Assembly (NCBI GenBank): GCA_014378155.1
Contig: JACMOF010000203.1
Location: 1 to 20,231, forward strand
From: Caulobacter sp.
Lineage (GTDB): Bacteria; Pseudomonadota; Alphaproteobacteria; Caulobacterales; Caulobacteraceae
DNA length: 20,231 nt
Reading direction: 5' to 3'
Part shown: piece by piece, positions 773-20,231 of the stretch
Layout: every line of letters begins with the position of its first letter
How positions within the stretch are numbered: the stretch's first letter is position 1
The notes under the pieces: generated by a model
The model's database searches: none
What the model was told of the DNA's origin: nothing
What the model saw: the letters and a program-made list of their open reading frames with translations, nothing else
Made by a program: the position numbers and the translations under genes

Positions 773-787
773 CAAGTCGGGCTCCTG

Positions 788-3655: not shown

Positions 3656-3755
3656 TGTCCGGAAACCTTCTGAAGAAAGTTTGGAGGCGCCTGGGCGTTT
3701 GTGGCGTCATTGGGGCGAGCAACGAGGCTTGGGCCTCAGGGAATGGTGAGCACCG

Positions 3756-4772: not shown

Positions 4773-4801
4773 CGCCGTCCTGAACATCGGAGGGTGTTTC
4801 G

Positions 4802-7216: not shown

Positions 7217-7253
7217 GGCGCCAAGGTCGCGGCATTCATCAAGGAACGCCGCC

Positions 7254-7955: not shown

Positions 7956-8216
7956 TGTGAGGGCGGCGCTTGGCGCCGCCCGCCGCAGCCGGTCCATCAA
8001 GTCGCCCAGCGTTTCGCAGCGGGCCAGGTCGCTGTCGGGCAAGACAGTGCCGCATTGGTCCTCCAAGGCGGCCACGAGGCCCAGGAATTCGTAGGCTGAG
8101 ACATCGAGGTGGTCGAGCAAGTGCGATCGACCTAGGCGCCTCGGCATTTGACCGAGCGATCGGCTCGGCAAGGACAGCAGAGCCGTTTCAGAAGCAGGAT
8201 CGAAGAAAAGAGCCAT
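7809..8216 (-). CDS. Acyl-carrier-protein-like small protein, degenerate attachment site
   Basis: A 135-residue ORF whose start is well supported: a GGAGGAGG lies eight bases before the ATG at 8216. Residues 32-78 align by eye without gaps to the ACP fold: HLLDHLDVSAYEFLGLVAAL, then EDQCGTVLPDSDLARCETLG and DLMDRL, matching helix II, the loop and helix III. The phosphopantetheine-carrying Ser of the DSL motif aligns with Ala41, and a Ser sits one residue earlier (Ser40), so ordinary modification is doubtful. Residues 85-135 are Arg/Asp/Pro-rich and read antisense through the end of the VIT1/CCC1 gene (147-base overlap); this tail may be spurious if a base is missing near 7961-7981. It has no obvious operon partner and its function is unknown. 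Confidence 0.6.
   Translation of the reverse strand: MALFFDPASETALLSLPSRSLGQMPRRLGRSHLLDHLDVSAYEFLGLVAALEDQCGTVLPDSDLARCETLGDLMDRLRRAAPSAALTLDDRADQPADTRRHDHGEGSPEGDPRRRAPRRRAASFGAGHAEQHQAS
7961..7981 (+). terminator. Perfect GC-rich hairpin after the VIT1/CCC1 gene
   Basis: A perfect 9-bp stem, GGGCGGCGC (7961-7969) and GCGCCGCCC (7973-7981), with a 3-base loop starts five bases after the transporter stop. There is no T-run, so it is a terminator-like or mRNA-stabilising hairpin rather than a canonical intrinsic terminator. It also lies inside the convergent ACP-like ORF, where it encodes an Ala-rich stretch. Confidence 0.5.
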
Positions 8217-8578
8217 GGTGACGTCCTCCTCCCGCAAGGACGACGGGCTTTCGCGCCTCCCTCGAAGGGTTCGTATGATCGCGACATTTTCCAAGTCCCG
8301 CGCGCTGAACTCACCTCAGAACTCGTCCCGCCAAGGTCGCGCGTGCTGCCGCAAGCAAACGGTCCGATGTCAAGAATGGCCCAGGTTCGGACGATTGGTT
8401 GAGGACCGAACACGCCGGCAGCATAGCGTTCGCAAAGGCGCGTCAAGGCTCGTGGCGCCAGGAGTCAAATTCGCCAATTGAAAGGGTCGCTTGTAGCGCT
8501 GGCGCGCACCTGCGGCACACCCTGCCTTACGATGCGCCCAATTGTCTGACGGCTACCGCTTGGGTGGAAGGGGTCGCC
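8217..8578. other. Intergenic region, no convincing gene
   Basis: About 360 bases between the ACP-like gene start and the end of the methyltransferase gene, both on the minus strand. Open frames here lack homology-like features and good starts. The stretch should contain the ACP-like gene's promoter and 5' leader. In the leader (minus strand) CGTCCT and AGGACG can pair around a 9-base loop that carries most of the Shine-Dalgarno sequence. No clear -35/-10 pair was found. Confidence 0.4.
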
Positions 8579-9202
8579 TCAGCCTCGCTGCGCAACGCCG
8601 AGCTCACACCAGCCCAACGGCTTGGGGGCCTTCGGGATATAGAACGCCTGATGGGTCTCGATCACGAACCCCGCCGCGATGATCGCCCCGCCGACCGGAC
8701 GGGTCAGGCGGCAGCCGCCGGCCAGCGGCGTCCAGAACGGTTCGATGCGCCTCTGCCAGGCCACGACCTCCGGGTCGGGCGCCAGGCCATGCTCACAGAA
8801 GATAAATCGGCCGCCGGGCTTCAGAACCCGCCGCGCCTCGGCCAGCACGGCCCCTGGCGTATGAACCGAACACAGGGTGAAGGTGCAGACGACAGTGTCG
8901 AAGATTTGGTCATCAAACAGCAGTTGCTCGGCCGCCCCCGCCAGGACCTCGACCTTAAGGCCTTTGGGACGCGGCGCCGCCAGGGCCCGATCCCTCAGGC
9001 CCTCCGACGGATCAACCCCGGTGACGCTGCTAACCAGCCTCGGATCATAGAAGGCCAGGTTCAGTCCGCCCCCGATCCCCAGTTCCAGAACCCGCCCTTG
9101 CGCCTGGGGAACGACCTTGGCGCGCAGCTTGGCGATCGCCCTCGCCCCGCAAGCGCAGCCAATGAGGCGCGGTAGGATATGGCGATCATAGAAGGACATC
9201 AT
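8579..9202 (-). CDS. Class I SAM-dependent methyltransferase, METTL7/thiol methyltransferase-like
   Basis: A 207-residue soluble methyltransferase. Motif I is VLELGIGGG (38-46), the acidic ribose-binding residue is D64 in TGVDPS, and the later core strand reads VVCTFTLCSV (104-113), followed by RRVLKPGGRFIFCEH. After the core, EPFWTPLAGGCRLTR (154-168) resembles the segment following the core in human METTL7A/B (TMT1A/B), which methylate hydrogen sulfide and other thiols; that similarity is from memory. It is the last gene of the sqr operon and overlaps the short arsR gene as ATGA. In this setting the likely substrate is sulfide, a persulfide or a small thiol, giving a volatile methylated product. 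Alternatives are a lipid or quinone methyltransferase. Two consecutive ATGs (9202, 9199) exist. Confidence 0.88.
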   Translation of the reverse strand: MMSFYDRHILPRLIGCACGARAIAKLRAKVVPQAQGRVLELGIGGGLNLAFYDPRLVSSVTGVDPSEGLRDRALAAPRPKGLKVEVLAGAAEQLLFDDQIFDTVVCTFTLCSVHTPGAVLAEARRVLKPGGRFIFCEHGLAPDPEVVAWQRRIEPFWTPLAGGCRLTRPVGGAIIAAGFVIETHQAFYIPKAPKPLGWCELGVAQRG

Positions 9203-9465
9203 GGCCGCTGCTCACCCTGCCGTTCCACTACTTTTAGGAGCGCCCTGGCCAGGGTCAAGGCCCCGTCGTCGACGATCCTGTAGTCGATCTCAGCATCGCG
9301 AAGGCGCGTCAGATGTTGCGACAGCGCCGATCGAGGGAGCGGCAGGTGGGCCTGCGGATCGCTGACCCGCAAGGCTCCGTCGCCTAGAGCCCGGAGAATT
9401 CGCAAGCGATGGATATTGGCCAACGCCCGCAGGATGTCGTCCGGCGGCGCCGGTTCATTGACCAT
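9199..9465 (-). CDS. Short ArsR-family winged-helix regulator without sensor cysteines
   Basis: An 88-residue protein beginning MVNEPAPPDDILRALANIHR, with the ArsR pattern ILRALANIHRLRILRALGDG and a recognition helix in PRSALSQHLTRLRDAEIDYR. It contains no cysteine at all, so it cannot sense persulfides through a dithiol as the two larger ArsR proteins here can, and the wing and C-terminal helix are short. The ATG lies within the last codons of the tolC-like gene (11-base overlap) and its stop overlaps the methyltransferase start (4 bases), so it is translated as part of the operon. Earlier in-frame starts up to 9588 would run antisense-like through the tolC-like gene and are rejected. Its signal and target are unknown. 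Confidence 0.8.
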   Translation of the reverse strand: MVNEPAPPDDILRALANIHRLRILRALGDGALRVSDPQAHLPLPRSALSQHLTRLRDAEIDYRIVDDGALTLARALLKVVERQGEQRP

Positions 9466-10720
9466 GCAGCATCGCGTTGAGGCGGTAGGTCGAGACCGTA
9501 ACGTCACCGCGTGCGGCGACCAGTGCGCTTGCGGCCGCCAGGGCCTCGCGTTGGGCGTCGAGAAGATCCAAGATAGGCTTTTGGCCAACCCGCACCTCGT
9601 TGCGCACGCTGTCCAGCGCGCTGGTCGCGGCTACGGCCTGGTCGGTGGCGGCGAGCATCACCGCGCGCGCGGTGGCGACATCGCCCCAGGCGCCGATCAC
9701 CGTTTCGCGAACCTGGGCCCGCGCCGCATCGAGACGCGCCCGGGCGCCGCGAAGCTCCGCGCCGGCCTCCTCGATACGCCCGCTCGCCGCGCCCCCCGAA
9801 AACAGGGTCCAGCGCCCCTGGACGCCGACCGTCACGCCATCGGCGCTGTATCCGGGAAAGAACTGGTCGCGCGCCGTGCTGGCGGTGGCGGTGAGGGCCA
9901 AGCTCGGCAGACGCTCGGCCTTGGCATAGCGAACGCCGGCCCCAGCCGCGCGCTCGGTCGCCTGGGCGGCCAGCAGCATCGGGCTGGATTGAGAGGCCGT
10001 TGCGATCGCCTCATCGAGCGATGCGGGCGCCGCAGGAGGCGTGACCACCGTCTCCAAGTCGTCCGGCTCCGCCCCGACGACGGAGACGAAGTGGGCCCGA
10101 CTGCGGGCCAGTTGACCCTCGGCCCGAGCCAGACCCGAGCGGCTCTCCGCCTGCCGGGCGGTGGCTTGGTCAAGGTCGGTGCGAGGAATTTCGCCGCCGT
10201 TGAAGCGTAACCTGGCTTGGCTTGTGATCGTCTCCATCTGCAGGACCTGGCTATGGCTCAGGGCCAGCATGTCTTGAGCGCCGAGAACCCCGACATAGGC
10301 TGCGGCCACGTCGGCGCTCAGCAGGGCCGTCGCGCCGCCGACCTGGGCCTGAGCCACGGCCCTGCCCTCCCCGGCTCGGGCGATGGCGGCGCTGACGCCG
10401 CCGCCTGAGAACAGCGGCTGGCGCAGTTGCAGCGAGGCCGCGCGGGGCGACACATCGCTCTGACCAAAGCCGAAGAAGCCGCCAAGGTCCGTTGTCCCGC
10501 TGGCGCTTTCGGCCGACAGGGTCAGACTGGGGAGGCGACCGGCGCGGGCCTGGGCCAAGCGCGCCGAGGCCGCCTCCGACTGGGCCTGGACCTGGGCCAG
10601 GCCAGGATTGGAGCGCCGCGCCAGGGCGATAGCCTCGGGTAGGGTCATGGCCGCAGCGCCCTGAGGCGCGGCGGCGCAGGCCAGCAAGGTTAGGGCGAGC
10701 ACGGCGCGCATCGGGCTCAC
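9455..10720 (-). CDS. TolC-like outer membrane efflux protein
   Basis: A 421-residue outer membrane factor. A signal peptide (MSPMRAVLALTLLACAAA, cleavage near GAAA) is followed by MTLPEAIALARRSNPGLAQ, the usual N-terminus of the OEP family, and by two repeated halves rich in Ala/Gln coiled-coil helices with beta segments such as LQLRQPLFSGGG and VQGRWTLFSGGA, each ending in the barrel strand motif. The GTG at 10720 overlaps the stop of the DUF2892 gene as GTGA; ATG 10711 is the alternative. It should provide the outer membrane channel for the RND adaptor and pump, which are encoded in the divergent operon beginning at 12840, not next to it. The exported substrate is unknown, plausibly a sulfur compound. 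Confidence 0.92.
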   Translation of the reverse strand: MSPMRAVLALTLLACAAAPQGAAAMTLPEAIALARRSNPGLAQVQAQSEAASARLAQARAGRLPSLTLSAESASGTTDLGGFFGFGQSDVSPRAASLQLRQPLFSGGGVSAAIARAGEGRAVAQAQVGGATALLSADVAAAYVGVLGAQDMLALSHSQVLQMETITSQARLRFNGGEIPRTDLDQATARQAESRSGLARAEGQLARSRAHFVSVVGAEPDDLETVVTPPAAPASLDEAIATASQSSPMLLAAQATERAAGAGVRYAKAERLPSLALTATASTARDQFFPGYSADGVTVGVQGRWTLFSGGAASGRIEEAGAELRGARARLDAARAQVRETVIGAWGDVATARAVMLAATDQAVAATSALDSVRNEVRVGQKPILDLLDAQREALAAASALVAARGDVTVSTYRLNAMLHGQ

Positions 10721-10920
10721 CGGAACGCGACGCCCGGCTTGACGCCGAGCTTCTTGAACACCATCGCGGCGGGGCAAAAGCCAGTGAAGGCGGCCTGCAT
10801 CATGTTGAGGCCAGCAAAGATCGGAAGGGCGATCCACCAGGGATGAACGAAGTGGGCCAAGGCGACGCCCACCAGAACGACCAAGCCGGCGAAGGCCAGA
10901 ACCATACGGTCGATCGTCAT
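10717..10920 (-). CDS. DUF2892 (YgaP-like) small inner membrane protein
   Basis: A 67-residue protein with two membrane helices (about 7-23 and 28-45) and the family signature FTGFCPAAMVFKKLGV, which contains a single Cys49. DUF2892 is the membrane half of Escherichia coli YgaP, where it is fused to a rhodanese; here a separate rhodanese is encoded in the divergent operon, so the two could act together in sulfane-sulfur handling or thiocyanate/sulfide export. This is inference from family context. It is preceded by GGGAGG, starts three bases after the trxC stop and overlaps the tolC-like start by 4 bases. Longer forms of the frame upstream are antisense-like shadows of trxC. Confidence 0.88.
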   Translation of the reverse strand: MTIDRMVLAFAGLVVLVGVALAHFVHPWWIALPIFAGLNMMQAAFTGFCPAAMVFKKLGVKPGVAFR

Positions 10921-10922
10921 GA

Positions 10923-11384
10923 TCAACCTCCCTTTTCGGCCGAGGCGTTCGCCTGGGCCAGAGCCTGGTGCGTCCAGGCGACGATCTGGGCCGCGCTCAT
11001 CAGGCCGGCGGACCGCGCGATGACGACCCCGTCTCGATAAAGCAGCAGGGCCGGAATGCCCGAGACGCCCAGCGCACCGGCGGCCTGCGGTTCGGCTTCG
11101 GAATTGAGCTTCAGCAATCGGACCTCCGGCTCGAGCCGAACGGCCGCAGCGGCGTACTGGGGCGCCATCGACCGGCAAGGTCCGCACCAAGGCGCCCAGA
11201 CATCGACGAGCACTGCGCCGCCGCGGGTCTTGCCGGTGTGCGCGGCCAGTTGCGCGCCGCTCACCTCGACCGGAACGCCGGAGAACAGACGCTCGCCGCA
11301 GCGGCCGCACTTGGCCGCCAAGGCGTTTTTGTCTTCCGGGGCGCGATTGGTCGCGCCACAGGCGGGACATACAAGCTGGCGCAT
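10923..11384 (-). CDS. trxC: Thioredoxin 2 with N-terminal zinc ribbon
   Basis: A 153-residue thioredoxin of the TrxC type. Two CxxC pairs at the N-terminus (C6-C9 and C26-C29: VCPACG and KCGRCG) form the zinc-binding module, followed by a full thioredoxin domain with the active site WCGPC (66-70) and the cis-proline loop GIP (P111). In a sulfide-oxidising setting it would reduce protein persulfides and disulfides and could accept sulfane sulfur made by SQR. The ATG overlaps the sqr stop by one base (TGATG), so it is probably translated by reinitiation; a GTG one codon earlier (11387) is possible. It shares its regulation with sqr. Confidence 0.93.
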   Translation of the reverse strand: MRQLVCPACGATNRAPEDKNALAAKCGRCGERLFSGVPVEVSGAQLAAHTGKTRGGAVLVDVWAPWCGPCRSMAPQYAAAAVRLEPEVRLLKLNSEAEPQAAGALGVSGIPALLLYRDGVVIARSAGLMSAAQIVAWTHQALAQANASAEKGG

Positions 11385-12682
11385 CACGACGCCCTTTGCG
11401 GCCCGGGCTTGATCTTCGGGATGCCCATCACGTCCAGGGCGAGCTTCTCATAGAACGGTTCGCTCTCGCCGCGCTTGACCTTGGCCAGGAAGTATTTCTC
11501 GAACCCGACCTTGGCCAAATGGACCCACTTGCCGCTGGCCGACCAGTTGACGTTGCGCGGCGGGATTTGGGGCTGGGCGACGAAAACCACGCCGCCGTCG
11601 CCGAAGTCCGCCAGGCAGATGGCGTTCCAGGTCGCCTCGTGCGTTGCGGGCTTGCCATCCAGGATCTCTTTGAAGTTGTGAGCGATGGCCGTGACCATGC
11701 TCTCGATCATGAAGCCGGTCTTGGGCACGCCGACCGGCACAGGGGTCTTGCCGGTCGGGGCGATGGCCACGCAGACACCCAGGGCCATAACGTTTTGGAA
11801 CGTCGGATTGCGCTGGTGCTTGTCGACCAGAATAAAGCCACGCGGATTGGTCAGGCCCATGACGCCATGCACGGCGGCAACACCCCTGAAGGCCGGCAGC
11901 ATCATCGAATAGGCAAACGGCAGGTCGTGGGTCGCCTTGACGGCGCCGTCATCGGCCACCTCTTCCACGTGCATCAGGCCCGCTTCGACCGAGGTCACGC
12001 GGGCGTTGGTGACCCACTTGATGTGCCGCTGGCGCATCTCGCTCTCCAGCAGGCCCTTCGTGTCGCCCACCCCGTCCAAGCCCAGGTGACCGACATAGGG
12101 CTCGGAGGTGACGAAGGTCATCGGCACCCTGTCGCGGATTTTGCGGCGCTTGAGCTCGGTGTCGAGGATCATCGCGAACTCGTAGGCCGGGCCAAAGCAC
12201 GAAGCGCCCTGCACCGCGCCGACGATGATCGGACCGGGATTTTCCACGAAGCGGTCAAAGGCGGCGGCGGCTGTCTCGGCATGATCGACGTGACAGACCG
12301 ACTGGGTGAAGCCGCCATGCGGCCCAAGGCCCGCAATTTCATCGAAGGCCAGCTCCGGCCCGGTGGCGATCACCAGATAGTCGTAGTCGAGCAGCACGCC
12401 GTCGGTCAGTTCGAGTTGGTTACGCTCGGGCATGACCTTGGCGGCGCCGACGCCCCGGAAGGCGATGCCCTTTTTCTTGAACACCGGCGGCAGTACGACC
12501 TCGATGGCTTCGCGCTTGCGCCAATGGACGGCGACCCACGGGTTGGACGGCACGAAGTGGAAGGTGTCGCCCTGCGAGACCACCTCGACTTCCGCCTTTT
12601 CGCCGACGGCCTGCTTGATCTCGAAGGCGGCGATGGCGCCGCCTAGTCCGGCGCCCAGAATGACGATGCGCGGCTTGGCCAT
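11384..12682 (-). CDS. sqr: Sulfide:quinone oxidoreductase
   Basis: A 432-residue FAD flavoprotein that oxidises hydrogen sulfide and passes electrons to membrane quinone. The N-terminal GxGxxG dinucleotide motif is ILGAGLGGAIAA (8-19), and a second conserved ATGP (106-109) is present. Cysteines fall at 130 (SVCHVDH), 162 (GASCFGP), 304 and 356 (NAICLADFG); C130, C162 and C356 correspond closely in position to the three catalytic cysteines of Acidithiobacillus ferrooxidans SQR (128, 160, 356), so the enzyme looks active. The C-terminus has the amphipathic, aromatic membrane-anchoring region (WVHLAKVGFEKYFL). The start ATG has GGGAGG nine bases upstream. It is the first gene of a six-gene leftward operon and lies divergent from a SqrR/BigR-type repressor gene. 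Confidence 0.96.
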   Translation of the reverse strand: MAKPRIVILGAGLGGAIAAFEIKQAVGEKAEVEVVSQGDTFHFVPSNPWVAVHWRKREAIEVVLPPVFKKKGIAFRGVGAAKVMPERNQLELTDGVLLDYDYLVIATGPELAFDEIAGLGPHGGFTQSVCHVDHAETAAAAFDRFVENPGPIIVGAVQGASCFGPAYEFAMILDTELKRRKIRDRVPMTFVTSEPYVGHLGLDGVGDTKGLLESEMRQRHIKWVTNARVTSVEAGLMHVEEVADDGAVKATHDLPFAYSMMLPAFRGVAAVHGVMGLTNPRGFILVDKHQRNPTFQNVMALGVCVAIAPTGKTPVPVGVPKTGFMIESMVTAIAHNFKEILDGKPATHEATWNAICLADFGDGGVVFVAQPQIPPRNVNWSASGKWVHLAKVGFEKYFLAKVKRGESEPFYEKLALDVMGIPKIKPGPQRAS

Positions 12683-12748
12683 GAGTTCATTCCTCCCTGA
12701 GCCGTCGGCTTGGAGCGGCAAGGTCCGCTCGATCCGATAGCCCGGCGT

Positions 12749-12762
12749 TGATTCAGATCACT
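12749..12762. promoter_or_regulatory. FNR/FixK-like box upstream of sqr
   Basis: TTGATTCAGATCAC matches the TTGAT-N4-ATCAA palindrome bound by FNR/FixK regulators at 9 of 10 conserved positions. It lies about 67 bases upstream of the sqr ATG in the 157-base divergent region. Such a site would link sulfide oxidation to oxygen limitation. I could not place a promoter -10 at the ideal distance for activation. Confidence 0.4.
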
Positions 12763-12803
12763 TCGGACGGTGATGACCGGCCCTAGGGTGATCGCGACAA
12801 TCC

Positions 12804-12839
12804 TTGACTGAATATTTGAATAGACGCATATACGCAACT
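12804..12839 (+). promoter_or_regulatory. Promoter of the dithiol arsR gene with embedded AT-rich operator
   Basis: TTGACT (12804-12809) and CATATA (12827-12832) are spaced by 17 bases and would start transcription at or next to the A of the ATG at 12840, giving a leaderless mRNA; there is no Shine-Dalgarno before the ATG. Between the two boxes lies TGAATATTTGAATAGAC (12809-12825), nearly the same as the motif in the tauE/dioxygenase control region. Binding there would block this promoter and probably the divergent sqr promoter. The start TTG at 12804 is thus the -35 box, not a codon. Confidence 0.55.
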
Positions 12840-13184
12840 ATGAAATTAGAGCCTCACGCCCTCAAGGCCTCTGCGGACGACGCCTGCGCCCTGCTCAAGG
12901 CGCTGGCCAATCCGCATCGGCTGATGATCGTCTGCGCGTTGATTGACGGCGAGCAGTCGGTTGGCGCGCTGGCCCATCTCTTGGGGGTCCGCGAGACCCT
13001 GGCCTCGCAACATCTGGGTCTGCTGCGTCGCGATGGCGTTGTCGGCGCCCGGCGCGATGGCCAGACCATCTATTACGATCTTCGCGGCGGTCAGGCCCGC
13101 GCCCTGGTCGAGACCCTGTCGCGCCTGTTCTGCGCGGTACCCGAAGCCGCCGCCTACCCCGCCCCTCTCAAGGAGATGCATTGA
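12840..13184 (+). CDS. SqrR/BigR-type dithiol ArsR repressor (persulfide sensor)
   Basis: A 114-residue ArsR winged-helix protein: LLKALANPHRLMIVCALIDG, a recognition helix around LASQHLGLLRRDG, then the wing RRDGQTIYYDL. Cys32 (alpha2) and Cys98 (alpha5) are 66 residues apart, exactly the spacing of the C41/C107 pair of Rhodobacter SqrR and C42/C108 of BigR, which form a tetrasulfide or disulfide with persulfides and release DNA. A third Cys16 is extra. It sits divergent from sqr, heads the rhodanese and RND operon, and has a matching operator upstream, so it is the likely master regulator of this island. The ATG at 12840 appears leaderless. The repressor stop overlaps the rhodanese ATG by one base. 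Confidence 0.92.
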   Translation: MKLEPHALKASADDACALLKALANPHRLMIVCALIDGEQSVGALAHLLGVRETLASQHLGLLRRDGVVGARRDGQTIYYDLRGGQARALVETLSRLFCAVPEAAAYPAPLKEMH

Positions 13185-13510
13185 TGTTTGGATCGCCCAA
13201 GACCAAGGACCTCACCGCCCATCAGGTGAAGACCGCCCTCGACGCCCAGGAGATCCTGCTGGTCGATGTGCGCGAGCCGGCCGAGTTCGCCGCGGAGCGC
13301 ATTCCTGGCGCGGTCAATATTCCGCTCTCGAGCTTTGATCCCAAGGCCCTGCCGGACGCCGGCGGCAAGTCCGTGGTGTTCAGTTGCGGTTCGGGCAAGC
13401 GCTCGGCCACTGCCGTGGAGTACTGCCAGAAGGCCGGCCATGCGCTGGACACCCACCTGACCGGCGGGATCACAGCCTGGAAGGCCGCCGGCCTCCCCAC
13501 CGTCCGCTAG
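13184..13510 (+). CDS. Single-domain rhodanese
   Basis: A 108-residue single-domain sulfurtransferase. The fold markers LLVDVREPAEFAAERIPGA and NIPLSS precede the active-site loop SCGSGKRSATA, in which Cys68 is the persulfide-carrying catalytic residue and Arg73 lies at the end of the CxxGxR loop; the C-terminal LTGGITAWKAAGLP is also typical. It would accept sulfane sulfur from SQR-made persulfides and pass it to thiols such as glutathione or to the DUF2892 protein. AAGGAG lies eight bases before the ATG, which overlaps the repressor stop (TGATG). Its own stop codon TAG (13508-13510) lies inside the terminal inverted repeat of a 108-base repeat element, so the original C-terminus may have been different. 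Confidence 0.95.
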   Translation: MFGSPKTKDLTAHQVKTALDAQEILLVDVREPAEFAAERIPGAVNIPLSSFDPKALPDAGGKSVVFSCGSGKRSATAVEYCQKAGHALDTHLTGGITAWKAAGLPTVR

Positions 13511-13614
13511 AGCATTTTTCGAGCGAAGTGGTTCCGGTTCGCGTGAAGAAAAATGCGTCAAAACAGAAGATTAGAGCTCACGGCCTGACGCAGTCAGGTC
13601 GGGAAATGCTCTAG
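13507..13614. repeat. 108-bp palindromic repeat element (alphaproteobacterial small interspersed repeat)
   Basis: The element is bounded by a perfect 11-base inverted repeat, CTAGAGCATTT (13507-13517) and AAATGCTCTAG (13604-13614). Inside, GCATTTTTC (13512-13520) can instead pair perfectly with GAAAAATGC (13548-13556), and CCTGAC/GTCAGG (13584-13589, 13593-13598) forms a 6-bp hairpin. The sequence around GCGAAGTGG...GGTTCGCGTGAAG resembles a short repeat seen many times in alphaproteobacterial genomes (from memory). It sits between the rhodanese and the RND adaptor genes and could act as an mRNA processing or attenuation structure within the operon. Confidence 0.75.
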
Positions 13615-13650
13615 CCGACAATCACAAGACCAACCCCTGGAGCGGACGCC

Positions 13651-14685
13651 ATGATGGCACGGCCCTATCTGATCAGCGCCTTGGGAGTCGCCTTGCTGCT
13701 CAGCGCCTGCGGCGTATCCAAGGAAGCTCCGGCGCCGGCCGCCAAGACAGCTCCAGCGGCTGACCGTCTGACCATCCGCGCCCAGACCGTAGCCGACCTC
13801 AAGCCGGTTCCCGCCACCCTGACCACACGCGACATGGCCGACGCCCGGGCGCGGATCGCCGGAACCCTGGTGGCGCTGAGCGTCAAGGAAGGCGATGTCG
13901 TCCGTCAGGGTCAATTGATTGGCCGGATCAAGGATGACCGGCTGGCGCTGCAGACCGGGGCGTTCGACGCCCAGGTCGCCGCCGCCGCCGCCGAAGCCGC
14001 CCGCGCCCGGGCCGACCTGGCCCGCACCCGTGATCTCTTTTCACATGGGGTCTATGCCCAGGCCCGCCTGGATCAGGTGGAGGCCCAAGCCAAGGCCGCC
14101 AGCGCCAACCTCACAGCCGCCCGCGCCCAGCGCGGGGCCAGCGCCGAACTTGGCGCCCAAGGCGCGATCCTGGCGCCGGCCTCGGGTCGGGTCCTGGTGG
14201 CCAATGTCCCGGTAGGCTCGGTGGTGATGCCCGGCCAATCGGTCGCCAGGATCACCGCGGGTCCTCTGGTCGTGCGCATCGAACTGCCGGAGGGCCAGGC
14301 GCGGGCCCTGAAGGTCGGCGACCCCGTGGACCTGGCCGCCGACGACCTCCGCGGCGTCGCCGCGCGCGGATCCATCACCCAGATCTATCCTTCGATCACC
14401 AGCGGCCAGGTTACCGCCGACGTCACCGCGCCCAACCTGCCCAGCGACCTGATCGGCCAGCGCGTGCGCGCTGCCGTCAAGATCGGCGAGCGTAAGGCGA
14501 TCATCATTCCCCGGCGTTATGTCGCCACCCGTTTCGGCGTCGACTATGCGCGGCTGGTCGGGGCTGATGGCGTGATCTCGGAATCACCCATCCAGACCCG
14601 CGGTGCCGCCTCACCCGACGCCGTCGAGATCCTGTCGGGCCTGCGCCTCGGCGACATCCTGACCCCGGCAGAGGCCGCCCGATGA
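13651..14685 (+). CDS. RND efflux periplasmic adaptor lipoprotein
   Basis: A 344-residue membrane fusion protein. The N-terminus is a lipoprotein signal (MMARPYLISALGVALLLSAC) with lipobox LSAC, so Cys20 should be lipidated. Then come a beta-barrel/lipoyl half-motif (AGTLVALSVKEGDVVRQGQL), an alpha-helical hairpin (about 100-160, rich in Ala/Arg/Gln), the second lipoyl half (ILAPASGRVLVANVPVGSVV) and a membrane-proximal domain ending GLRLGDILTPAEAAR. It would bridge the RND pump to a TolC-type channel, probably the one encoded at 9455-10720. GGAG lies eight bases before the ATG. Its stop overlaps the pump start as ATGA. Confidence 0.94.
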   Translation: MMARPYLISALGVALLLSACGVSKEAPAPAAKTAPAADRLTIRAQTVADLKPVPATLTTRDMADARARIAGTLVALSVKEGDVVRQGQLIGRIKDDRLALQTGAFDAQVAAAAAEAARARADLARTRDLFSHGVYAQARLDQVEAQAKAASANLTAARAQRGASAELGAQGAILAPASGRVLVANVPVGSVVMPGQSVARITAGPLVVRIELPEGQARALKVGDPVDLAADDLRGVAARGSITQIYPSITSGQVTADVTAPNLPSDLIGQRVRAAVKIGERKAIIIPRRYVATRFGVDYARLVGADGVISESPIQTRGAASPDAVEILSGLRLGDILTPAEAAR

Positions 14686-17600
14686 ACCTGGGCCTCTCGG
14701 GTCGCCTGACCAAGGCGTCGATCAAGTCGCCGCTGACGCCGCTGATCCTGCTGGCGGCGATCGCCGTGGGCCTGCTGGCCCTGATTTCGATCCCCCGCGA
14801 GGAGGAGCCGCAGATCAGCGTGCCCATGGTCGACATCATGGTCGCCGCGCCCGGCCTGCGCGCCCCCGACGCCATCGAACTGGTTGGCAAGCCGCTGGAG
14901 ACCATCGTCAAGAGCGTCGCCGAGGTCGAACACGTCTATACTTTTGCCGACGACAATCAGGTGATGGTCACAGCCCGCTTCAAGGTCGGGGTCGATCCTG
15001 ACGCCGCAGCCGTGCGCATCCACGAGAAGATCCGCGCCAACTATGACCGCATTCCCGCTGGCATAGCAGAACCCCTGATCCAGACGCGCGGCATCAACGA
15101 CGTGCCCAGCCTGGTGCTGACCCTGTCGCCCAAGCCCGGCGCCGCCGGCCAATGGACCGATCAGGCGCTGTATGAGCTGGCCGGCAAGCTGAGGACCGAG
15201 GTGGCCAAGGTCGACGACGTCGGCCTGACCTTCATCGTCGGCGGACGGCCCGAGGAGATCCGCATCGCGCCCGATCCGGCGCGCCTGGCCCAGCACGGCG
15301 TGTCGCTTGGCGCTTTGATGGACACCGTGCGTCAGGCCACCCGCGCCTTCCCAGCCGGCCAGATCCGGGGCGGCGGCCAGACGATCGACGTCACGGCCGG
15401 CCGCAGCATGACCAGCACGGTTGATATTGGCCTTCTGGCCCTGCCGTCCGCGAGCGGCCAGGCGGTCTTTGTCCGAGACGTCGCCGATGTCATCCAGGGT
15501 CCTCGCGAGGATCAGGCCCGCGCCTGGCGCTATGCCCGCGTCGATGGCGGCTGGAGCCAGGCGCCGGCGGTCAGCCTGGCCATCGCCAAGCGCAAGGGCG
15601 CCAACGCGGTCGTCGTTTCGCAGGCGGTGCTGGCGCGGGTCGAAGCCCTGAAGGGGTCTTTGCTGCCCGATAGCCTGGATGTCGCCGTGACCCGCGACTA
15701 TGGCGCCACGGCCAACGAGAAGGCCAACGAGCTGCTGTTTCACCTGGGCTTGGCTACCCTGTCGATCGTGGTCTTGATCGGCCTGGCCATCGGCTGGCGC
15801 GAGGCGGCGGTGACCGCCGTGGTCATCCCGACCACCATCCTGCTGACCCTCTTCGCCTCCAACCTGATGGGCTACACCATCAATCGGGTCAGCCTGTTTG
15901 CCTTGATCTTCTCGATCGGCATCCTGGTCGACGACGCCATCGTCATGATCGAGAACATTGCGCGACATTGGGCGATGGCCGACGGCCGAAGCCGGATCGA
16001 TGCGGCGGTCGACGCGGTGGCGGAGGTCGGCAATCCGACCGTGGTCGCCACCCTGACGGTGGTCTCGGCCCTGCTGCCGATGCTTTTCGTCTCGGGCCTC
16101 ATGGGCCCCTACATGGCTCCGATCCCGGTCAACGCCTCGGCGGCCATGGTGTTCTCATTCTTCGTCGCCGTGGTCATCGCGCCCTGGCTGATGGTGCGTT
16201 TCGCCCGCAAGACGCTAAACGCCGACGGCCATGGCGCCAAGGGCGGCCACGACGGCGGCGGCAAGCTTGGCGGACTCTATCGCCAGGTCGCGGGGCGGGT
16301 CATCGCCACGCGCAAGAGCGCCTGGACCTTCCTGATCGGCGTGGGCCTAGCCACCCTGCTGGCCTGCGCCATGTTCGCCACCAAGACCGTGACGGTGAAA
16401 CTGCTGCCGTTCGACAACAAGTCGGAGCTGCAGGTGGTGTTGGACATGCCGGAGGGAACCTCGCTGGAGGCCACCTCCCGAGCCTTGTCCGACGCGGCGG
16501 TGATCACCCGCGCCCTGCCCGAGGTCACGGCGATCGACGCCTATGCGGGCACGGCCTCGCCTTTCAATTTCAACGGCCTGGTGCGCCACTACTATCTGCG
16601 CAATCGCCCCGACCAGGGCGATCTATCGGTCGCCTTGGCCGAAAAGGGCGGGCGCACGCGCTCCAGCCACGCCGTGGCGCTGGACCTGCGCGAGCGGCTG
16701 GCCAAGGTTGTGCTGCCGGGCGGGGCCTCGATCAAGGTGGTCGAGGCCCCGCCCGGACCGCCGGTGATGGCCACCCTGCTGGCCGAGATCTATGGTCCCG
16801 ACGCCAAGACGCGGCGCGCCGTGGCCGAACGCGTCAAGGCCGCCTTCAAGTCCGTGCCCTACATCGTCGATATCGACGACAGCTACGGCCAGCCCCGGCC
16901 CGGCCTGCGCCTGATTCCCGACCGCGATCGCCTGGAGGCCCTGAAGGTCAATGACCGCGAGGTCCTGGACTCGATCAGTGCGGCTTTTGGCGGTCAGGTG
17001 GTCGGCTACGCCCATCGCGGCGAGGGGCGCGATCCCCTGGAGATTTCGGTGCGCCTGCCGCAGTCGGCGCGCAGCTGGGGCGAAGGTCTGGCATCCCTGC
17101 CCGTGGCCCAGAGCCAGGGTGGCCGGCTCGTGGCGCTGGGCGAGGTGGTCACCGCCACCCAGGAGGCCGGATCGACCCACATCTTCCGCCGCGACGGCCG
17201 CGACGTCGATATGATCATGGCCGAACTGGCCGGCGCCTACGAGGCGCCGATCTACGGGATGATGGCGGTCGATAAGGCGATCAAGACTGCCGACTGGGGC
17301 AATCTGCAAATGCCCGACATTCGCATGAACGGCCAGCCGACCGACGAGAGCAAGCCGACCGTGCTCTGGGACGGTGAGTGGGAAATCACCTGGGTGACCT
17401 TCCGCGACATGGGCGCGGCCTTCGGGGTGGCGATCCTTGGCATCTATGTGCTGGTCGTCGCCCAGTTCAAGAGCTTCCGCCTGCCGCTGGTGATCCTGAC
17501 GCCGATCCCCCTGACCCTGGTCGGCATCGTCATCGGCCACATCCTGTTCAAGGCGCCCTTCACCGCCACCTCGATGATCGGCTTCATCGCCCTGGCGGGG

Positions 17601-17903
17601 ATCATCGTGCGCAATTCGATCCTGCTGGTGGACTTCATCCGCCACAGCCAGACCGGCGATCGGCCGCTGCGCGAGGTGTTGCTCGAAGCTGGAGCGATCC
17701 GCTTCAAGCCGATCGTTCTGACCGCCCTGGCGGCCATGATCGGCGCGGCGGTGATCCTGTTCGACCCGATCTTCCAGGGCTTGGCGATCTCGCTGCTGTT
17801 TGGCTTGGCCTCATCGACGGTGCTGACCGTGCTGGTGATTCCCGCCCTCTACATCGTCCTGCGCGATGACGACCGCCCGCAGGTTCCCAAGGAGTCGACA
17901 TGA
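14682..17903 (+). CDS. RND-family efflux pump, inner membrane permease
   Basis: A 1073-residue RND transporter with the usual layout: a first membrane helix (PLILLAAIAVGLLALISI), a large periplasmic loop, helices 2-6, a second loop and helices 8-12. The proton-relay pair D417-D418 is present in GILVDDAIVMIENI (TM4). In TM10 the position of the AcrB Lys940 is Arg977 (GIIVRNSILLVDF), a possible difference in the relay network. It overlaps the adaptor and dps genes, so the three genes are coupled. Substrate type cannot be told: it has neither the methionine-rich look of CusA nor strong similarity to a known drug pump that I can name. Placement in a SqrR-type regulon suggests export of a sulfide-related or toxic thiol compound. 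Confidence 0.94.
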   Translation: MNLGLSGRLTKASIKSPLTPLILLAAIAVGLLALISIPREEEPQISVPMVDIMVAAPGLRAPDAIELVGKPLETIVKSVAEVEHVYTFADDNQVMVTARFKVGVDPDAAAVRIHEKIRANYDRIPAGIAEPLIQTRGINDVPSLVLTLSPKPGAAGQWTDQALYELAGKLRTEVAKVDDVGLTFIVGGRPEEIRIAPDPARLAQHGVSLGALMDTVRQATRAFPAGQIRGGGQTIDVTAGRSMTSTVDIGLLALPSASGQAVFVRDVADVIQGPREDQARAWRYARVDGGWSQAPAVSLAIAKRKGANAVVVSQAVLARVEALKGSLLPDSLDVAVTRDYGATANEKANELLFHLGLATLSIVVLIGLAIGWREAAVTAVVIPTTILLTLFASNLMGYTINRVSLFALIFSIGILVDDAIVMIENIARHWAMADGRSRIDAAVDAVAEVGNPTVVATLTVVSALLPMLFVSGLMGPYMAPIPVNASAAMVFSFFVAVVIAPWLMVRFARKTLNADGHGAKGGHDGGGKLGGLYRQVAGRVIATRKSAWTFLIGVGLATLLACAMFATKTVTVKLLPFDNKSELQVVLDMPEGTSLEATSRALSDAAVITRALPEVTAIDAYAGTASPFNFNGLVRHYYLRNRPDQGDLSVALAEKGGRTRSSHAVALDLRERLAKVVLPGGASIKVVEAPPGPPVMATLLAEIYGPDAKTRRAVAERVKAAFKSVPYIVDIDDSYGQPRPGLRLIPDRDRLEALKVNDREVLDSISAAFGGQVVGYAHRGEGRDPLEISVRLPQSARSWGEGLASLPVAQSQGGRLVALGEVVTATQEAGSTHIFRRDGRDVDMIMAELAGAYEAPIYGMMAVDKAIKTADWGNLQMPDIRMNGQPTDESKPTVLWDGEWEITWVTFRDMGAAFGVAILGIYVLVVAQFKSFRLPLVILTPIPLTLVGIVIGHILFKAPFTATSMIGFIALAGIIVRNSILLVDFIRHSQTGDRPLREVLLEAGAIRFKPIVLTALAAMIGAAVILFDPIFQGLAISLLFGLASSTVLTVLVIPALYIVLRDDDRPQVPKEST

Positions 17904-18380
17904 CGAGCTTGGACATCGATATCGGCATCGCCTCGCCGGAACGCCAGGCCATCACCGAGGGCTCTCGCACCTGCTGGCCGACAGCTACACACTGTACCTG
18001 AAGACCCACAACTATCATTGGAACGTCACGGGTCCGATGTTCCAGACCCTGCACACCATGTTCATGACCCAGTACACCGAGCTGGGCTTGGCGGTCGATG
18101 ACATCGCCGAACGGATCCGCACCCTCGGCCATCCCGCCCCGGGCAGCTACGCGGCCTTCGCCAGGCTCTCCAGCATCGCCGAGGAGGACGCCGTCCCGCC
18201 GTCGCGCGAGATGATCATCAATCTGGTCAAGAGACACGAAACCGTGACGCGCACGGCCCGAGGGATCTTCCCGATCGCCAAGGCGGCTAGCGACGAGCCG
18301 ACCTGTGACCTGCTGACACAGCGCATGCAGGTCTCGGAAAGACCGCCTGGATGCTGCGCAGCCTTCTCGACCCGGCCTAG
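17900..18380 (+). pseudogene. dps: Dps-family ferritin-like protein gene with two 1-base deletions
   Basis: The gene starts ATG at 17900 (overlapping the RND stop as ATGA, with AAGGAG upstream) and reads MTSLDIDIGIASPERQAITEG, then shifts frame. The next frame gives the conserved Dps core YLKTHNYHWNVTGPMFQTLH and QYTELGLAVDDIAERIRTLG, carrying the His and Asp/Glu residues of the ferroxidase centre. Near the end a second shift is needed to read EKTAWMLRSLLDPA before TAG at 18378-18380. Both breaks look like single-base losses in short runs: a C at about 17962 (GGGCTC for GGGCCTC) and an A at 18338-18340 (GAAAG for GAAAAG). Repaired, it would be 160 residues. Either a true pseudogene or, since both are homopolymer losses, sequencing errors in a working DNA-protecting iron-storage protein. 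Confidence 0.88.
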
Positions 18381-18390
18381 ACGACAGGCA

Positions 18391-18415
18391 GGGCGGTCGC
18401 CGTCGGCGTCCGCCC
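18391..18415 (+). terminator. GC-rich hairpin after dps
   Basis: GGGCGG (18391-18396) pairs with CCGCCC (18410-18415), and inside it CGCC pairs with GGCG around a GTC loop, with one T-T mismatch. It begins ten bases after the repaired dps stop. No T-run follows, so it is a probable but non-canonical terminator for the rightward operon. Confidence 0.5.
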
Positions 18416-18424
18416 AACGCCCTC

Positions 18425-18458
18425 TTGAACCTCTCTGCGTATCTTCTAAATTAAGCAG
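18425..18458 (+). promoter_or_regulatory. Possible promoter of the second dithiol arsR gene, leaderless
   Basis: TTGAAC (18425-18430) and TAAATT (18447-18452) are 16 bases apart and would place the transcript start at or next to the ATG at 18459, again without a Shine-Dalgarno. The TCTGC...GCAGA inverted repeat (18434-18438, 18455-18459) flanks the -10 and could be an operator. The AT-rich motif shared by the other two control regions is absent here. Confidence 0.4.
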
Positions 18459-18794
18459 ATGAGCAAGCTCGCCCTCTCTTCGCCGGTCGATGATGTCCAG
18501 GATCTCGCCGCCAGCGCCCATGCCGCCGCGCGTTTGCTCAAGCTCCTGGCCAGCGAGCAGCGCCTGCTCATCCTCTGTCGTCTGATCGATGGGGAGGCCT
18601 CGGTCGGCGATCTGGCGGTCCATGTTGGAATGGCCCAGTCGGCGACCTCCCAGCACCTGGCCAAGATGCGCGCCGAGGGCTTGGTTGCCACCCGGCGGGA
18701 AGCTCAGACCATCTTCTATCGACTGGCCGATCCCGCCGCGATGCGCGTGCTTGAGACGCTGTGCGAGGTCTATCGCGGGGTTGGGACGCGCTGA
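18459..18794 (+). CDS. Second BigR/SqrR-like ArsR repressor with shifted cysteine
   Basis: A 111-residue ArsR-family repressor closely resembling the one at 12840: LLKLLASEQRLLILCRLIDG, recognition helix SATSQHLAKMRAEG, wing TRREAQTIFYRL. Cys40 matches the first sensor cysteine. The second cysteine is Cys102 (VLETLCEVY), four residues before the usual position, which is Arg106 here; that is one helical turn along alpha5. A dithiol bridge may still form but with other geometry, so its signal or affinity may differ from the first repressor. It is next to the convergent tauE-like gene and close to the dioxygenase gene, which BigR regulates in other bacteria. It probably controls that pair or its own gene. 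Confidence 0.9.
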   Translation: MSKLALSSPVDDVQDLAASAHAAARLLKLLASEQRLLILCRLIDGEASVGDLAVHVGMAQSATSQHLAKMRAEGLVATRREAQTIFYRLADPAAMRVLETLCEVYRGVGTR

Positions 18795-18799
18795 GCCTC

Positions 18800-18825
18800 G
18801 ATCACGACCTCATGCCGTCGTGGTC
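18800..18825. terminator. Hairpin between convergent arsR and tauE-like genes
   Basis: GATCACGAC (18800-18808) and GTCGTGGTC (18817-18825) form a 9-bp stem with one G-T pair and an 8-base loop that contains the tauE-like stop codon. The gene ends are 15 bases apart, so it could serve as a bidirectional terminator; no T-run is visible on either side. Confidence 0.45.
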
Positions 18826-19583
18826 TTCCAGGCCACATAGGCCGCGACCATCAGCACAAGGGCGGCGAACAACCTGCGCGCCAGCAACGCGCGCCCAGCC
18901 AGAAGTCCCGCGCCGCGTACGCCTAGGGCGCCTCCGCCCAGTCCGCCCAGGACAAAGAGACCCGCGACGGGCCAGTCGATCAGTCCGGAGGCGGCATAGT
19001 TCAGCGAGGTGGCCGCGCCAAACAGCGAGACCGACAGCAGCGATGAGGCCGTGGCGCTGGCCAGGGTCATGCCTGTAGCCGCTATCAATCCGGGTACAAT
19101 CAGGAACCCGCCGCCGATCCCGAAAAATCCGGCGGCAAGGCCCGTCAGCACGCCCAGCGGCGCCAGCTTTAGCATCAGGCTCGGGCTGATATGGACCAGC
19201 GGATCGCCCTCGGACTTGGGGCGACGCATCATCGATAGGGCAATCGCCGCCATCGCGGCGGCGAACCACAGTAACAGGCGCTGTCCATCGACAGCCTTGG
19301 CCAGGGTCGAGCCCAGGAAGGAGCCGATCAGTCCGGCTCCGGCGAAGACGCTCGCACACGGCCATTTGACGCGCCCTCCCCGGCCATGGCCCACCAGATT
19401 AAGCCCGGCATTGACCGCAACCGCTGCGGCCGATGTTCCAATCGCCACGTGGGGATCGTGGACACCAACGACATAGAGCAGCAATGGGGTGGCGAGCACC
19501 GACCCGCCGCCGCCGAACAGACCCAGCAGCGCGCCGACGACGACGCCGCTCATCAGGGCCGAAACGATCATGAACAAGGACAT
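18810..19583 (-). CDS. TauE/SafE-family sulfite/sulfur anion exporter
   Basis: A 257-residue membrane protein with about eight helices and the internal duplication typical of TauE/SafE: the first half begins GALLGLFGGGGSVLATPLLL and the second repeats GLAAGFFGIGGGFLIVPGLI. Members of this family next to persulfide dioxygenase and BigR genes are thought to export sulfite made from persulfide oxidation. It is divergent from the dioxygenase-like gene across a 78-base control region and convergent with the second arsR gene. The predicted minus-strand promoter (-35 TCGACA at 19635-19640, -10 TATATG at 19612-19617) is overlapped by the shared AT-rich motif, so repression by a dithiol ArsR protein is expected. 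Confidence 0.92.
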   Translation of the reverse strand: MSLFMIVSALMSGVVVGALLGLFGGGGSVLATPLLLYVVGVHDPHVAIGTSAAAVAVNAGLNLVGHGRGGRVKWPCASVFAGAGLIGSFLGSTLAKAVDGQRLLLWFAAAMAAIALSMMRRPKSEGDPLVHISPSLMLKLAPLGVLTGLAAGFFGIGGGFLIVPGLIAATGMTLASATASSLLSVSLFGAATSLNYAASGLIDWPVAGLFVLGGLGGGALGVRGAGLLAGRALLARRLFAALVLMVAAYVAWKTTTA

Positions 19584-19604
19584 ACGGCCAACTCGACGGG
19601 ACTT

Positions 19605-19640
19605 GTATATTCATATATTCGCATATAAGTACTCTGTCGA
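19605..19640 (-). promoter_or_regulatory. Divergent tauE/dioxygenase promoter with AT-rich operator
   Basis: On the minus strand, CGAATATATGAATATAC (19621 down to 19605) agrees at 14 of 17 bases with the motif at 12809-12825. It covers the -10 TATATG (19617-19612) of a promoter whose -35 TCGACA (19640-19635) is 17 bases away. The plus-strand gene may use TATAAG (19624-19629) as its -10, with no good -35. One bound repressor could therefore silence both genes. Confidence 0.6.
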
Positions 19641-19661
19641 TAGGAAACCCGAGAGTATGTG

Positions 19662-20231
19662 ATGCGCGAGCCGCCCCCTTCGCCCGACGCTGCCGTGAAC
19701 AAGGCGAGATCGATTATAGAACAGGCGCTGGCCGCACCCGTCTCGCGACCGCTGGTGCAAGCCTTCTTCGACGAGGCGACCTCCACGGTCAGCTATGTCG
19801 TGAGTGACCCCACCTCATCGGCTTGCGCCATCATCGACAGCGTCCTGGACTATGACGCGGCTTCAGGTAGGACCGCCGAGCGGTCGGCCGACGCACTCAT
19901 CGCCCATGTCAAGAATCAGGGGCTCACGGTCGTCTGGCAGTTGGAGACCCACGCCCACGCCGACCACCTGTCGGCCGCGCCCTATCTGCAAGGCGCTCTG
20001 GGCGGTCGCCTGGCGATCGGCGAGCATATCGTCGACGTTCAAAGCACGTTCGGAAAACTGTTCAATGCGGGACCCGACTTTGCTCGCGATGGCCGGCAGT
20101 TCGATCATCTGTTCAAGGACGGTGAGACGTTTTCGATTGGCGAGTTACGGGCCATCGCCCTGCATGTGCCCGGCCACACCCCGGCCTGCATGGCCTATGT
20201 GATCGGCGATGCGATCTTCGTCGGCGACACC
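19662..20231 (+). CDS. Persulfide-dioxygenase-like metallo-beta-lactamase-fold protein, 3' end outside window
   Basis: The first 190 residues of an MBL-fold hydrolase resembling ETHE1/SdoA/Blh persulfide dioxygenases. Metal-binding motif THAHADHLSAAPYL gives H97, H99, D101 and H102; H172 in PGHTPACMAYV and D189 in FVGDT are further ligands. In ETHE1-type enzymes only two His and one Asp bind a single Fe(II), which oxidises glutathione persulfide to sulfite; the residues needed to tell this from a glyoxalase II are partly outside the window. The ATG has GAGAG seven bases upstream and gives an N-terminal extension of about 35 residues before the MBL domain. Paired divergently with the TauE-like exporter, matching sulfite production with sulfite export. 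Confidence 0.9.
   Translation, partial: MREPPPSPDAAVNKARSIIEQALAAPVSRPLVQAFFDEATSTVSYVVSDPTSSACAIIDSVLDYDAASGRTAERSADALIAHVKNQGLTVVWQLETHAHADHLSAAPYLQGALGGRLAIGEHIVDVQSTFGKLFNAGPDFARDGRQFDHLFKDGETFSIGELRAIALHVPGHTPACMAYVIGDAIFVGDT

Follow-up and report, generated by a model that had tools for sequence, protein, structure and literature searches.

Methylation of hydrogen sulfide (H2S) on sulfur by the enzymes MddA, MddH and MddM has been described (PMC12904073; MddH is also reviewed in PMC13360808), and the role proposed for MddH and MddM1/MddM2 in both sources is the detoxification of H2S and methanethiol (MeSH) by conversion to dimethyl sulfide (DMS). According to PMC12904073, mddM1 and mddM2 are induced by H2S and are protective when expressed in E. 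coli; that study describes MddM1, MddM2, MddH and human TMT1A/B as relatives, each of which methylates H2S (see also PMC7921093), and its threshold for Mdd/TMT1 membership is an identity of at least 40% to a characterised enzyme. The main text of PMC12904073 contains no mention of operon, gene cluster, neighbourhood, genomic context, quinone or sulfide oxidation. Here, we analyze a METTL7/Mdd-like methyltransferase gene that lies at the end of a sulfide:quinone oxidoreductase (SQR) operon in Caulobacter sp. The DNA analyzed, referred to below as the window, is the complete contig JACMOF010000203.1 (20,231 nucleotides) of an 85%-complete assembly of 598 contigs and 3.83 Mb.

In the SqrR/BigR/sHdrR regulons of R. 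capsulatus, Xylella, Acinetobacter and Hyphomicrobium, genes for SQR, PDO, rhodanese, TauE and RND pumps are neighbours of a dithiol ArsR regulator (section 2.1 of PMC12423496), as they are in the window. Unlike those regulons, the window has two such regulators and a third that is devoid of cysteines, and its sqr operon contains trxC, tolC and the methyltransferase gene. The BigR-Blh operon of Xylella and Agrobacterium, which we take to consist of genes for a BigR-like repressor, an ETHE1-type dioxygenase, DUF2892 and TauE, has counterparts of all four in the window, where, however, the single-domain rhodanese and the dioxygenase are separate and SQR, an RND pump and the methyltransferase are added. 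The methyltransferase itself resembles MddH and MddM1/MddM2, which are of the UbiE/UbiG type, in being an S-adenosylmethionine (SAM)-dependent enzyme of similar size with a GxGxG motif; unlike the Mdd enzymes, it is known from sequence alone. Human TMT1A/TMT1B (METTL7A/B) are methyltransferases of alkyl thiols and H2S (PMC7921093) whose activity, in a further difference from the window protein, is described as microsomal; the window protein is tentatively likened to them by the first-pass annotation, by motifs and by the family statement in PMC12904073. The first-pass annotation had held that the gene combination could not be matched to a described system, which was too strong: S-methylation of H2S is described (PMC12904073), and the occurrence of RND genes close to dithiol ArsR regulators has been noted as well (PMC12423496). 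In the accessible text of the open-licence PMC literature, we found no description of an sqr or BigR operon that includes a methyltransferase gene, a combination that would join the known methylation chemistry and the known RND-regulator linkage in one operon.

The locus is a known kind of sulfide island, to whose sqr operon a methyltransferase gene has been added in a few lineages, with a parallel case in Psychrobacter. The minus strand reads sqr > trxC > DUF2892 > tolC > arsR2 > methyltransferase, and of the junctions between these genes, three are overlaps, while the remaining two are gaps of 2 and 5 bases. The plus strand carries arsR1, rhodanese, the RND periplasmic adaptor (MFP), the RND permease, a dps-like open reading frame (ORF) and arsR3; tauE (minus strand) and pdo (plus strand) follow. 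Profile matches and the cysteines of SQR and ArsR1 bear out the genes named in the first-pass annotation, in the order given there. The features are as follows:

8579..9202, minus strand: methyltransferase, class I SAM-dependent, METTL7/Mdd-like, 207 amino acids (aa), at the end of the sqr operon (Pfam Methyltransf_11, 74.6 bits)
9199..9465, minus strand: arsR2, Cys-less ArsR, 88 aa, overlapping tolC and the methyltransferase gene (HTH_5, 32.5 bits)
9455..10711, minus strand: tolC-type outer-membrane channel (TIGR01844, 263.7 bits; cut-off 225)
10717..10920, minus strand: DUF2892/YgaP-like transmembrane protein (PF11127, 40.4 bits; cut-off 25.3)
10923..11384, minus strand: trxC, thioredoxin 2 with Zn ribbon (PF00085 and PF21352; NF008229, 119.7 bits, slightly below the cut-off of 125)
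11384..12682, minus strand: sqr, sulfide:quinone oxidoreductase (490 bits to 3sz0)
12809..12834, plus strand: operator-like motif ATATT-N8-CGCATATA, immediately 5′ of arsR1 and approximately 130 bp from the divergent sqr
12840..13184, plus strand: arsR1, SqrR/BigR-type repressor with Cys16, Cys32 and Cys98
13181..13510, plus strand: single-domain rhodanese (PF00581, 66.9 bits)
13651..14685, plus strand: RND periplasmic adaptor, MFP (TIGR01730, 147.3 bits; cut-off 94.9)
14682..17903, plus strand: RND permease of the sulfide-linked subfamily (PF00873, 469.4 bits; neighbourhoods in 20 + 24 loci)
17866..18462, plus strand: dps-like ORF, frameshifted (PF00210, 80.2 bits)
18459..18794, plus strand: arsR3, dithiol ArsR with Cys40 and Cys102 (85.7 bits to the ArsR-family PDB group 13ct/6o8l-6o8o)
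18810..19583, minus strand: tauE, sulfite-exporter family (PF01925, 144.5 bits; cut-off 32.6)
19604..19629, plus strand: the operator-like motif again, here between tauE and pdo
19659..20231, plus strand: pdo, ETHE1-like persulfide dioxygenase (PDO), interrupted by the contig end (NF040641 (Blh), 206.3 bits on the part present)

SQR aligns almost end to end with the A. ferrooxidans enzyme (3sz0), and its residues C130, C162 and C356 fall on cysteines of the latter that we take to be the catalytic ones. Close similarity over the full length to an SQR of known structure, together with retention of the cysteines, is what would be expected of a genuine SQR. The score of pdo against NF040641 lies below the cut-off of 625; the gene is cut by the contig end, and the alignment begins at model position 138, the portion before that position being absent.

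The RND permease, SQR and the methyltransferase were used to search 61 genomes (the source genome and 60 relatives), of which 20, 23 and 32, respectively, had a match. Neighbourhoods were annotated with profiles made from the window genes, and island markers were scored at distances of up to 6 kb from the RND gene. Counting the window, this RND subfamily was present at 20 Caulobacterales loci, of which 19 had sulfide markers: rhodanese in 19, SQR in 17, DUF2892 in 17, a dithiol ArsR in 17 (a loose class, since the second cysteine was accepted anywhere near the C-terminus), TrxC in 13, PDO in 12 and TauE in 12. As a control, ten other RND loci of the same genome, several of them on short contigs, were inspected, and none had sulfide markers beside it. 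When co-occurrence was tested by independent pairs on an rpoB phylogeny covering 54 of the 61 genomes, RND and SQR agreed in 8.4 pairs and disagreed in 0.0 on average (median p 0.008). In a class-wide alphaproteobacterial sample of 289 genomes, 26 held the RND subfamily (E 1e-250 or better), and markers were present at 19 of 24 further loci (DUF2892 at 18, dithiol ArsR at 14, SQR at 6, rhodanese at 4, TauE at 2 and PDO at 1); outside Caulobacterales, the RND link is therefore mainly to DUF2892 and ArsR. These results support a single conserved sulfide-response island made up of sqr, the RND pump, rhodanese, DUF2892, ArsR, tauE and pdo. Since RND pumps are listed among the genes near persulfide-type ArsR regulators in section 2.1 of PMC12423496, the linkage seen here clearly exemplifies an association that had been noted before.

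The permease is a divergent branch of the ACR_tran family: it scores 407 and 305 bits against multidrug-subfamily models whose cut-off is 1250 bits (NF033617 / NF000282) while still being an ACR_tran member. With 468 bits, it is the lowest-scoring full-length ACR_tran match in the genome, the other full-length ones reaching at least 711. The first-pass annotation had proposed a complete tripartite exporter. MFP, RND and TolC genes are all present, but tolC sits in the sqr operon and does not adjoin the MFP-RND pair; a tolC gene no more than 6 kb from the RND gene was found at eight of the 20 Caulobacterales loci. The dps-like ORF, likewise counted with the island earlier, is present but is split across three frames relative to its homologue in locus L066, and sequencing error and decay cannot be told apart as the source of the frame breaks; dps is sporadic in the island, being found at 2 of the 20 Caulobacterales loci.

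Two of the three ArsR proteins carry cysteine pairs. A pair in ArsR1 aligns with that of BigR (3pqj), its third cysteine being extra; we take the expected sensor positions to be C41/C107 of SqrR, equivalent to C42/C108 of BigR, and ArsR1 would on this basis be a two-cysteine regulator of the SqrR/BigR kind. Since its score on the NCBIfam BigR equivalog model (88.3 bits) is below the cut-off of 155, we refer to it as BigR/SqrR-type and not as BigR. In ArsR3, which scores 79.1 bits on the same model and is thus also under its cut-off, the first cysteine aligns with that of SqrR and the second is located approximately four residues earlier; the PDB group that it matches is presumably SqrR itself. 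As judged from its sequence, ArsR3 is the second dithiol-type regulator of the island. ArsR2 has no cysteines and, by eye, is short of approximately ten wing residues relative to homologues of 98-99 aa. Those homologues, in contigs L085, L087 and L112, are Cys-less from the start codon and have kept the wing; since the arsR gene 5′ of the methyltransferase gene encodes a Cys-less protein in all four contigs, the Cys-less state is a family trait. The description of this regulator as Cys-less therefore stands, with the addition that the window copy also lacks part of its wing.

The sequence ATATT-N8-CGCATATA is common to the region 5′ of arsR1 and to the tauE/pdo intergenic region. The search pattern was derived from the two window sites and locus L063, so the two window hits are there by construction. 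When one mismatch was allowed, exactly two sites were retrieved from the 3.83-Mb assembly, both in the island, and a reversed control pattern had no occurrence there. When up to two mismatches were allowed, there were 36 hits in 532 kb comprising 29 loci (the window, island loci and linked methyltransferase loci), as against 2 hits in the 739 kb covered by 44 methyltransferase loci of other kinds; the number of sites is smaller than that of hits, since some hits overlap one another or represent a single site read on either strand. Island loci L067, L075 and L077 gave no hit. The motif is also found 5′ of arsR1 in L085 and L112, whose operons include the methyltransferase gene. In L070-L073, it is kept 5′ of rhodanese, arsR1 being undetected and arsR3 present, and ArsR3-type proteins may therefore read the motif as well. 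It appears that the island genes share one genetic switch, with the motif as its putative operator.

The methyltransferase (mean predicted local distance difference test score of its AF2 model, 91.1) has G42, G44 and G46 of the GxGxG motif invariant in 33 sequences, as would be expected of a class I SAM methyltransferase resembling the Mdd/TMT1 enzymes. Further conserved residues, E137-H138-G139, P155, W157, G162-G163-C164 and R168, mark a distinct family and in our assessment presumably resemble those of human METTL7. None of the 25 NCBIfam families listed had its cut-off reached, and membership in the arsenite methyltransferase, PmtA and UbiE families was rejected on this ground. No METTL7 or Mdd entry was among the PDB matches listed. 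When 58 homologues were placed on a tree, the window protein fell into a well-supported clade of 15 (96/96) that includes the four operon copies and whose members are not all linked to markers.

The surroundings of methyltransferase homologues were surveyed in 140 stretches: the window, 19 from the 61-genome set of relatives, 80 from named genomes (Caulobacter and other Caulobacteraceae; the best 80 of 246 matches) and 40 sampled. In the phylum survey, neighbourhoods were taken of 38 of 51 matches and of genome G041, and in the class survey of 2 of 49; 6 of 128 plasmid records were also inspected. One of the 140 stretches, L049, is the other half of L050 and has no methyltransferase, and some genomes appear twice (L043/L083, L044/L086, L051/L098 and L055/L113). 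With the best 80 of the 246 named relatives scanned, the complete sqr-trxC-DUF2892-tolC-arsR-methyltransferase operon is present in the window, L085 and L112, and L087 has the same tolC-arsR-methyltransferase end with a shortened tolC. Since L085 and L112 are close relatives, the four contigs with this operon end correspond to about three lineages. The placement of the methyltransferase inside a sulfide island, claimed in the first-pass annotation, is thus borne out, and a homologue occupies a comparable setting in Psychrobacter. There (L147), a BigR-like gene, whose product has both cysteines and scores 109.6 bits (cut-off 155), is divergent to pdo-DUF2892-methyltransferase-trxC, all four on one strand, with 42 bases between the methyltransferase gene and trxC and 81.4 bits for DUF2892 (PF11127). 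As the Psychrobacter methyltransferase groups with Pseudomonas, outside the Caulobacter clade, its association with sulfide genes probably arose separately.

Other settings are looser. In L210, a methyltransferase gene closes a same-strand run with genes for PDO (4.8 kb away), a SulP permease and a metallo-β-lactamase (MBL)-fold protein, and dithiol ArsR and rhodanese genes are nearby; it is the second copy in genome G583 (Caulobacteraceae), the first (L209) having no markers nearby. On four Rhodobacterales plasmids (L227, L228, L231 and L232), of which two share the same methyltransferase protein accession, the gene directly before the homologue is of the CcdA/DsbD type, and TlpA/DsbE-type genes lie upstream of it; after the homologue come genes for cation transporters and for an ArsR/SmtB or CmtR protein, so that the context is one of thiol redox and metals. 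In the annotation of the S. meliloti plasmid region (L230, one of six plasmid regions), no sulfur or thiol neighbour was found. In L203 and L229 (plasmid of Halomonas sp. KO116), a PDO-type MBL gene lies approximately 2 kb from the methyltransferase gene on the opposite strand, with a TIGR01244-type sulfur transferase near; since the methyltransferase protein is the same in the two records, this is one case, and a weak one. A link in L092 (Novosphingobium) was rejected, with TauE and PDO 9-10 kb away, as was L177, a half-length match of only 27%. In L086 (Caulobacter sp. HMWF025), genes corresponding to window positions 110-7955 are in the same order, but there is no sqr/RND island; in this contig, a methyltransferase gene and arsR3 are adjacent and point away from each other, and another methyltransferase gene lies behind. 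This divergent pair was considered as a case of direct control by a dithiol regulator and was reduced to a weak link, the operator motif being absent. In Caulobacter Root1455 (L083), the methyltransferase gene and an arsR2 frameshifted into a remnant are on a different contig from the sqr island. In L087 (5165-10624), the tolC end, arsR and the methyltransferase gene adjoin genes for TrbC/VirB2 pilin and VirB4-type conjugation proteins, which suggests that the cassette travels on a mobile element.

Taken together, the data lead us to favour, with modest confidence, the following reading: the island is a persulfide-controlled sulfide detoxification system, and the methyltransferase at the end of its sqr operon caps H2S or a small alkyl thiol, providing a second, non-oxidative outlet. 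SQR, whose gene and aligned cysteines are observed, would oxidise sulfide at the membrane. By analogy with their families, rhodanese, DUF2892 and TrxC would pass on sulfane sulfur, PDO would convert it to sulfite, and TauE would export the sulfite. Persulfide or polysulfide arising from SQR would modify ArsR1 and/or ArsR3, and both operons as well as pdo/tauE would be derepressed through the shared putative operator. The RND-MFP pair, conserved in its linkage and probably working with the TolC of the sqr operon, would export a persulfide-related or thiol product. The methyltransferase, co-produced with SQR as its operon position indicates, would most likely turn H2S or a small alkyl thiol into a methyl thioether; its position suggests that the cell may also methylate sulfide. 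With less confidence, we tentatively propose the broader possibility that a single sulfide-sensing operon makes both outlets, oxidation by SQR and SAM-dependent S-methylation to a volatile thioether, along with an RND pump for a persulfide-derived product, and that bacterial METTL7-like enzymes linked to BigR-type, pdo, DUF2892 and trxC genes in Alpha- and Gammaproteobacteria serve in dedicated sulfide defence, distinct from their unlinked homologues. If so, the locus would offer a genetic test of why bacteria methylate sulfide, with induction, substrate and benefit measurable in one strain, since the methyltransferase gene apparently forms one transcription unit with sqr, beside a persulfide-type repressor; volatile methylated sulfur of Caulobacteraceae would be tied to sulfide stress, and sulfide enzymes would be marked within the very large METTL7-like family. 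The class-wide RND subfamily is a defined target for the question of which substrates persulfide-linked RND pumps export.

A number of observations weigh against a role of the methyltransferase in sulfide defence. One algal Mdd-like enzyme was inactive on H2S and MeSH when tested (PMC12904073). Among the 140 stretches, 114 are without any marker, and when markers of at least 100 bits within 6.5 kb are required, eight different genomes are left (those of the window, L085, L087, L112, L086, L147, L203 and L210); at several Caulobacter loci, the gene was found, by reading, among NUDIX, polyprenyl-synthase and ABC-transporter genes (families checked in L059). The two supporting operons come from imperfect assemblies: in L085, sqr is split in two, and in L112, the methyltransferase loses its reading frame close to the C-terminus. 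Neither the stand-alone methyltransferase copies L083, L084 and L086 nor Psychrobacter L147 has the operator motif. The nearest solved structure is a bacterial phosphatidylethanolamine (phospholipid) N-methyltransferase at 26% identity, which is unsurprising for a class I methyltransferase, and a search of the 85%-complete genome for methanethiol oxidase (SBP56) found none. Presence of the methyltransferase in 18 of the 20 RND genomes versus 14 of the 41 others looked strong by the Fisher test, and the class sample without the window gave 10/25 versus 37/263. On the rpoB tree, methyltransferase and RND agreed in 2.7 pairs and disagreed in 0.7, with 6.7 showing no difference (median p 0.625); for methyltransferase and SQR, the values were 3.6, 0.5 and 8.9 (median p 0.25, not significant). 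Since tree pairs do not support it, the genome-level correlation of methyltransferase and island was dropped as evidence. The gene-neighbourhood check proposed in the first-pass annotation therefore holds for sqr and the RND pump, but not, as a general rule, for the methyltransferase.

These observations are shared in part by the account in which the core of the island is a sulfide response and the methyltransferase a passenger, a mobile arsR-methyltransferase pair with a different function that settled behind tolC and is co-transcribed without a role in sulfide metabolism. Most surveyed homologues do lie elsewhere, the gene is off the contig of the sqr island in Root1455 and beside the left flank of the window without an island in HMWF025, and in L087 it neighbours conjugation genes. 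We nevertheless consider a passenger rather unlikely: in non-sister branches, the gene has an identical place in the operon, with ends that touch or overlap, the Psychrobacter arrangement with BigR and pdo-DUF2892-methyltransferase-trxC is separate, and the Rhodobacterales plasmid copies have thiol-redox neighbours.

The remaining accounts assign the enzyme another substrate. Methylation of phospholipids (PmtA-like) or of quinones (UbiE-like), by which the membrane or the quinone pool would be tuned for SQR, would agree with the nearest solved structure, which is the same by sequence and by fold, and with the UbiE-type Pfam domain match. The PDB match, however, spans residues 21-140, the SAM-binding core, while part of the invariant pattern (P155, W157, G162-G163-C164 and R168) lies outside it, and the NCBIfam scores are 44.6 bits for PmtA (cut-off 390) and 47.2 bits for UbiE (cut-off 158), making such a function improbable in our view. 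Least probable of all is that ArsR2 and the methyltransferase form a metalloid (arsenic-type) methylation unit, with the RND pump exporting metals or drugs and the sulfide genes being mere stress neighbours. The ArsR neighbours, weak matches to arsenite methyltransferases and the cation-transporter and ArsR/SmtB or CmtR genes on the four Rhodobacterales plasmids point that way; yet the arsenite-methyltransferase models, whose cut-offs are 240-575 bits, give scores of 22-40, arsenic trioxide is not a substrate of METTL7B according to PMC7921093, and the pump both falls far short of the multidrug-subfamily cut-off and is linked to sulfide genes. Capping of H2S or a small alkyl thiol by the methyltransferase thus remains the reading that we prefer.

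Two further regions of the window were inspected. Positions 13511-13650, which separate rhodanese from the RND adaptor, contain inverted repeats, e.g., CCTGACGCAGTCAGG, and resemble an intergenic repeat element. Beside the island, a small cluster at positions 110-8294 encodes a haem-oxygenase-like iron enzyme (PF14518), an AMP-binding ligase, a thermostable-hemolysin-family protein (PF12261), a carrier-protein match slightly below its cut-off, an extracytoplasmic function (ECF) sigma factor, FecR, a TonB receptor and a VIT-family protein.

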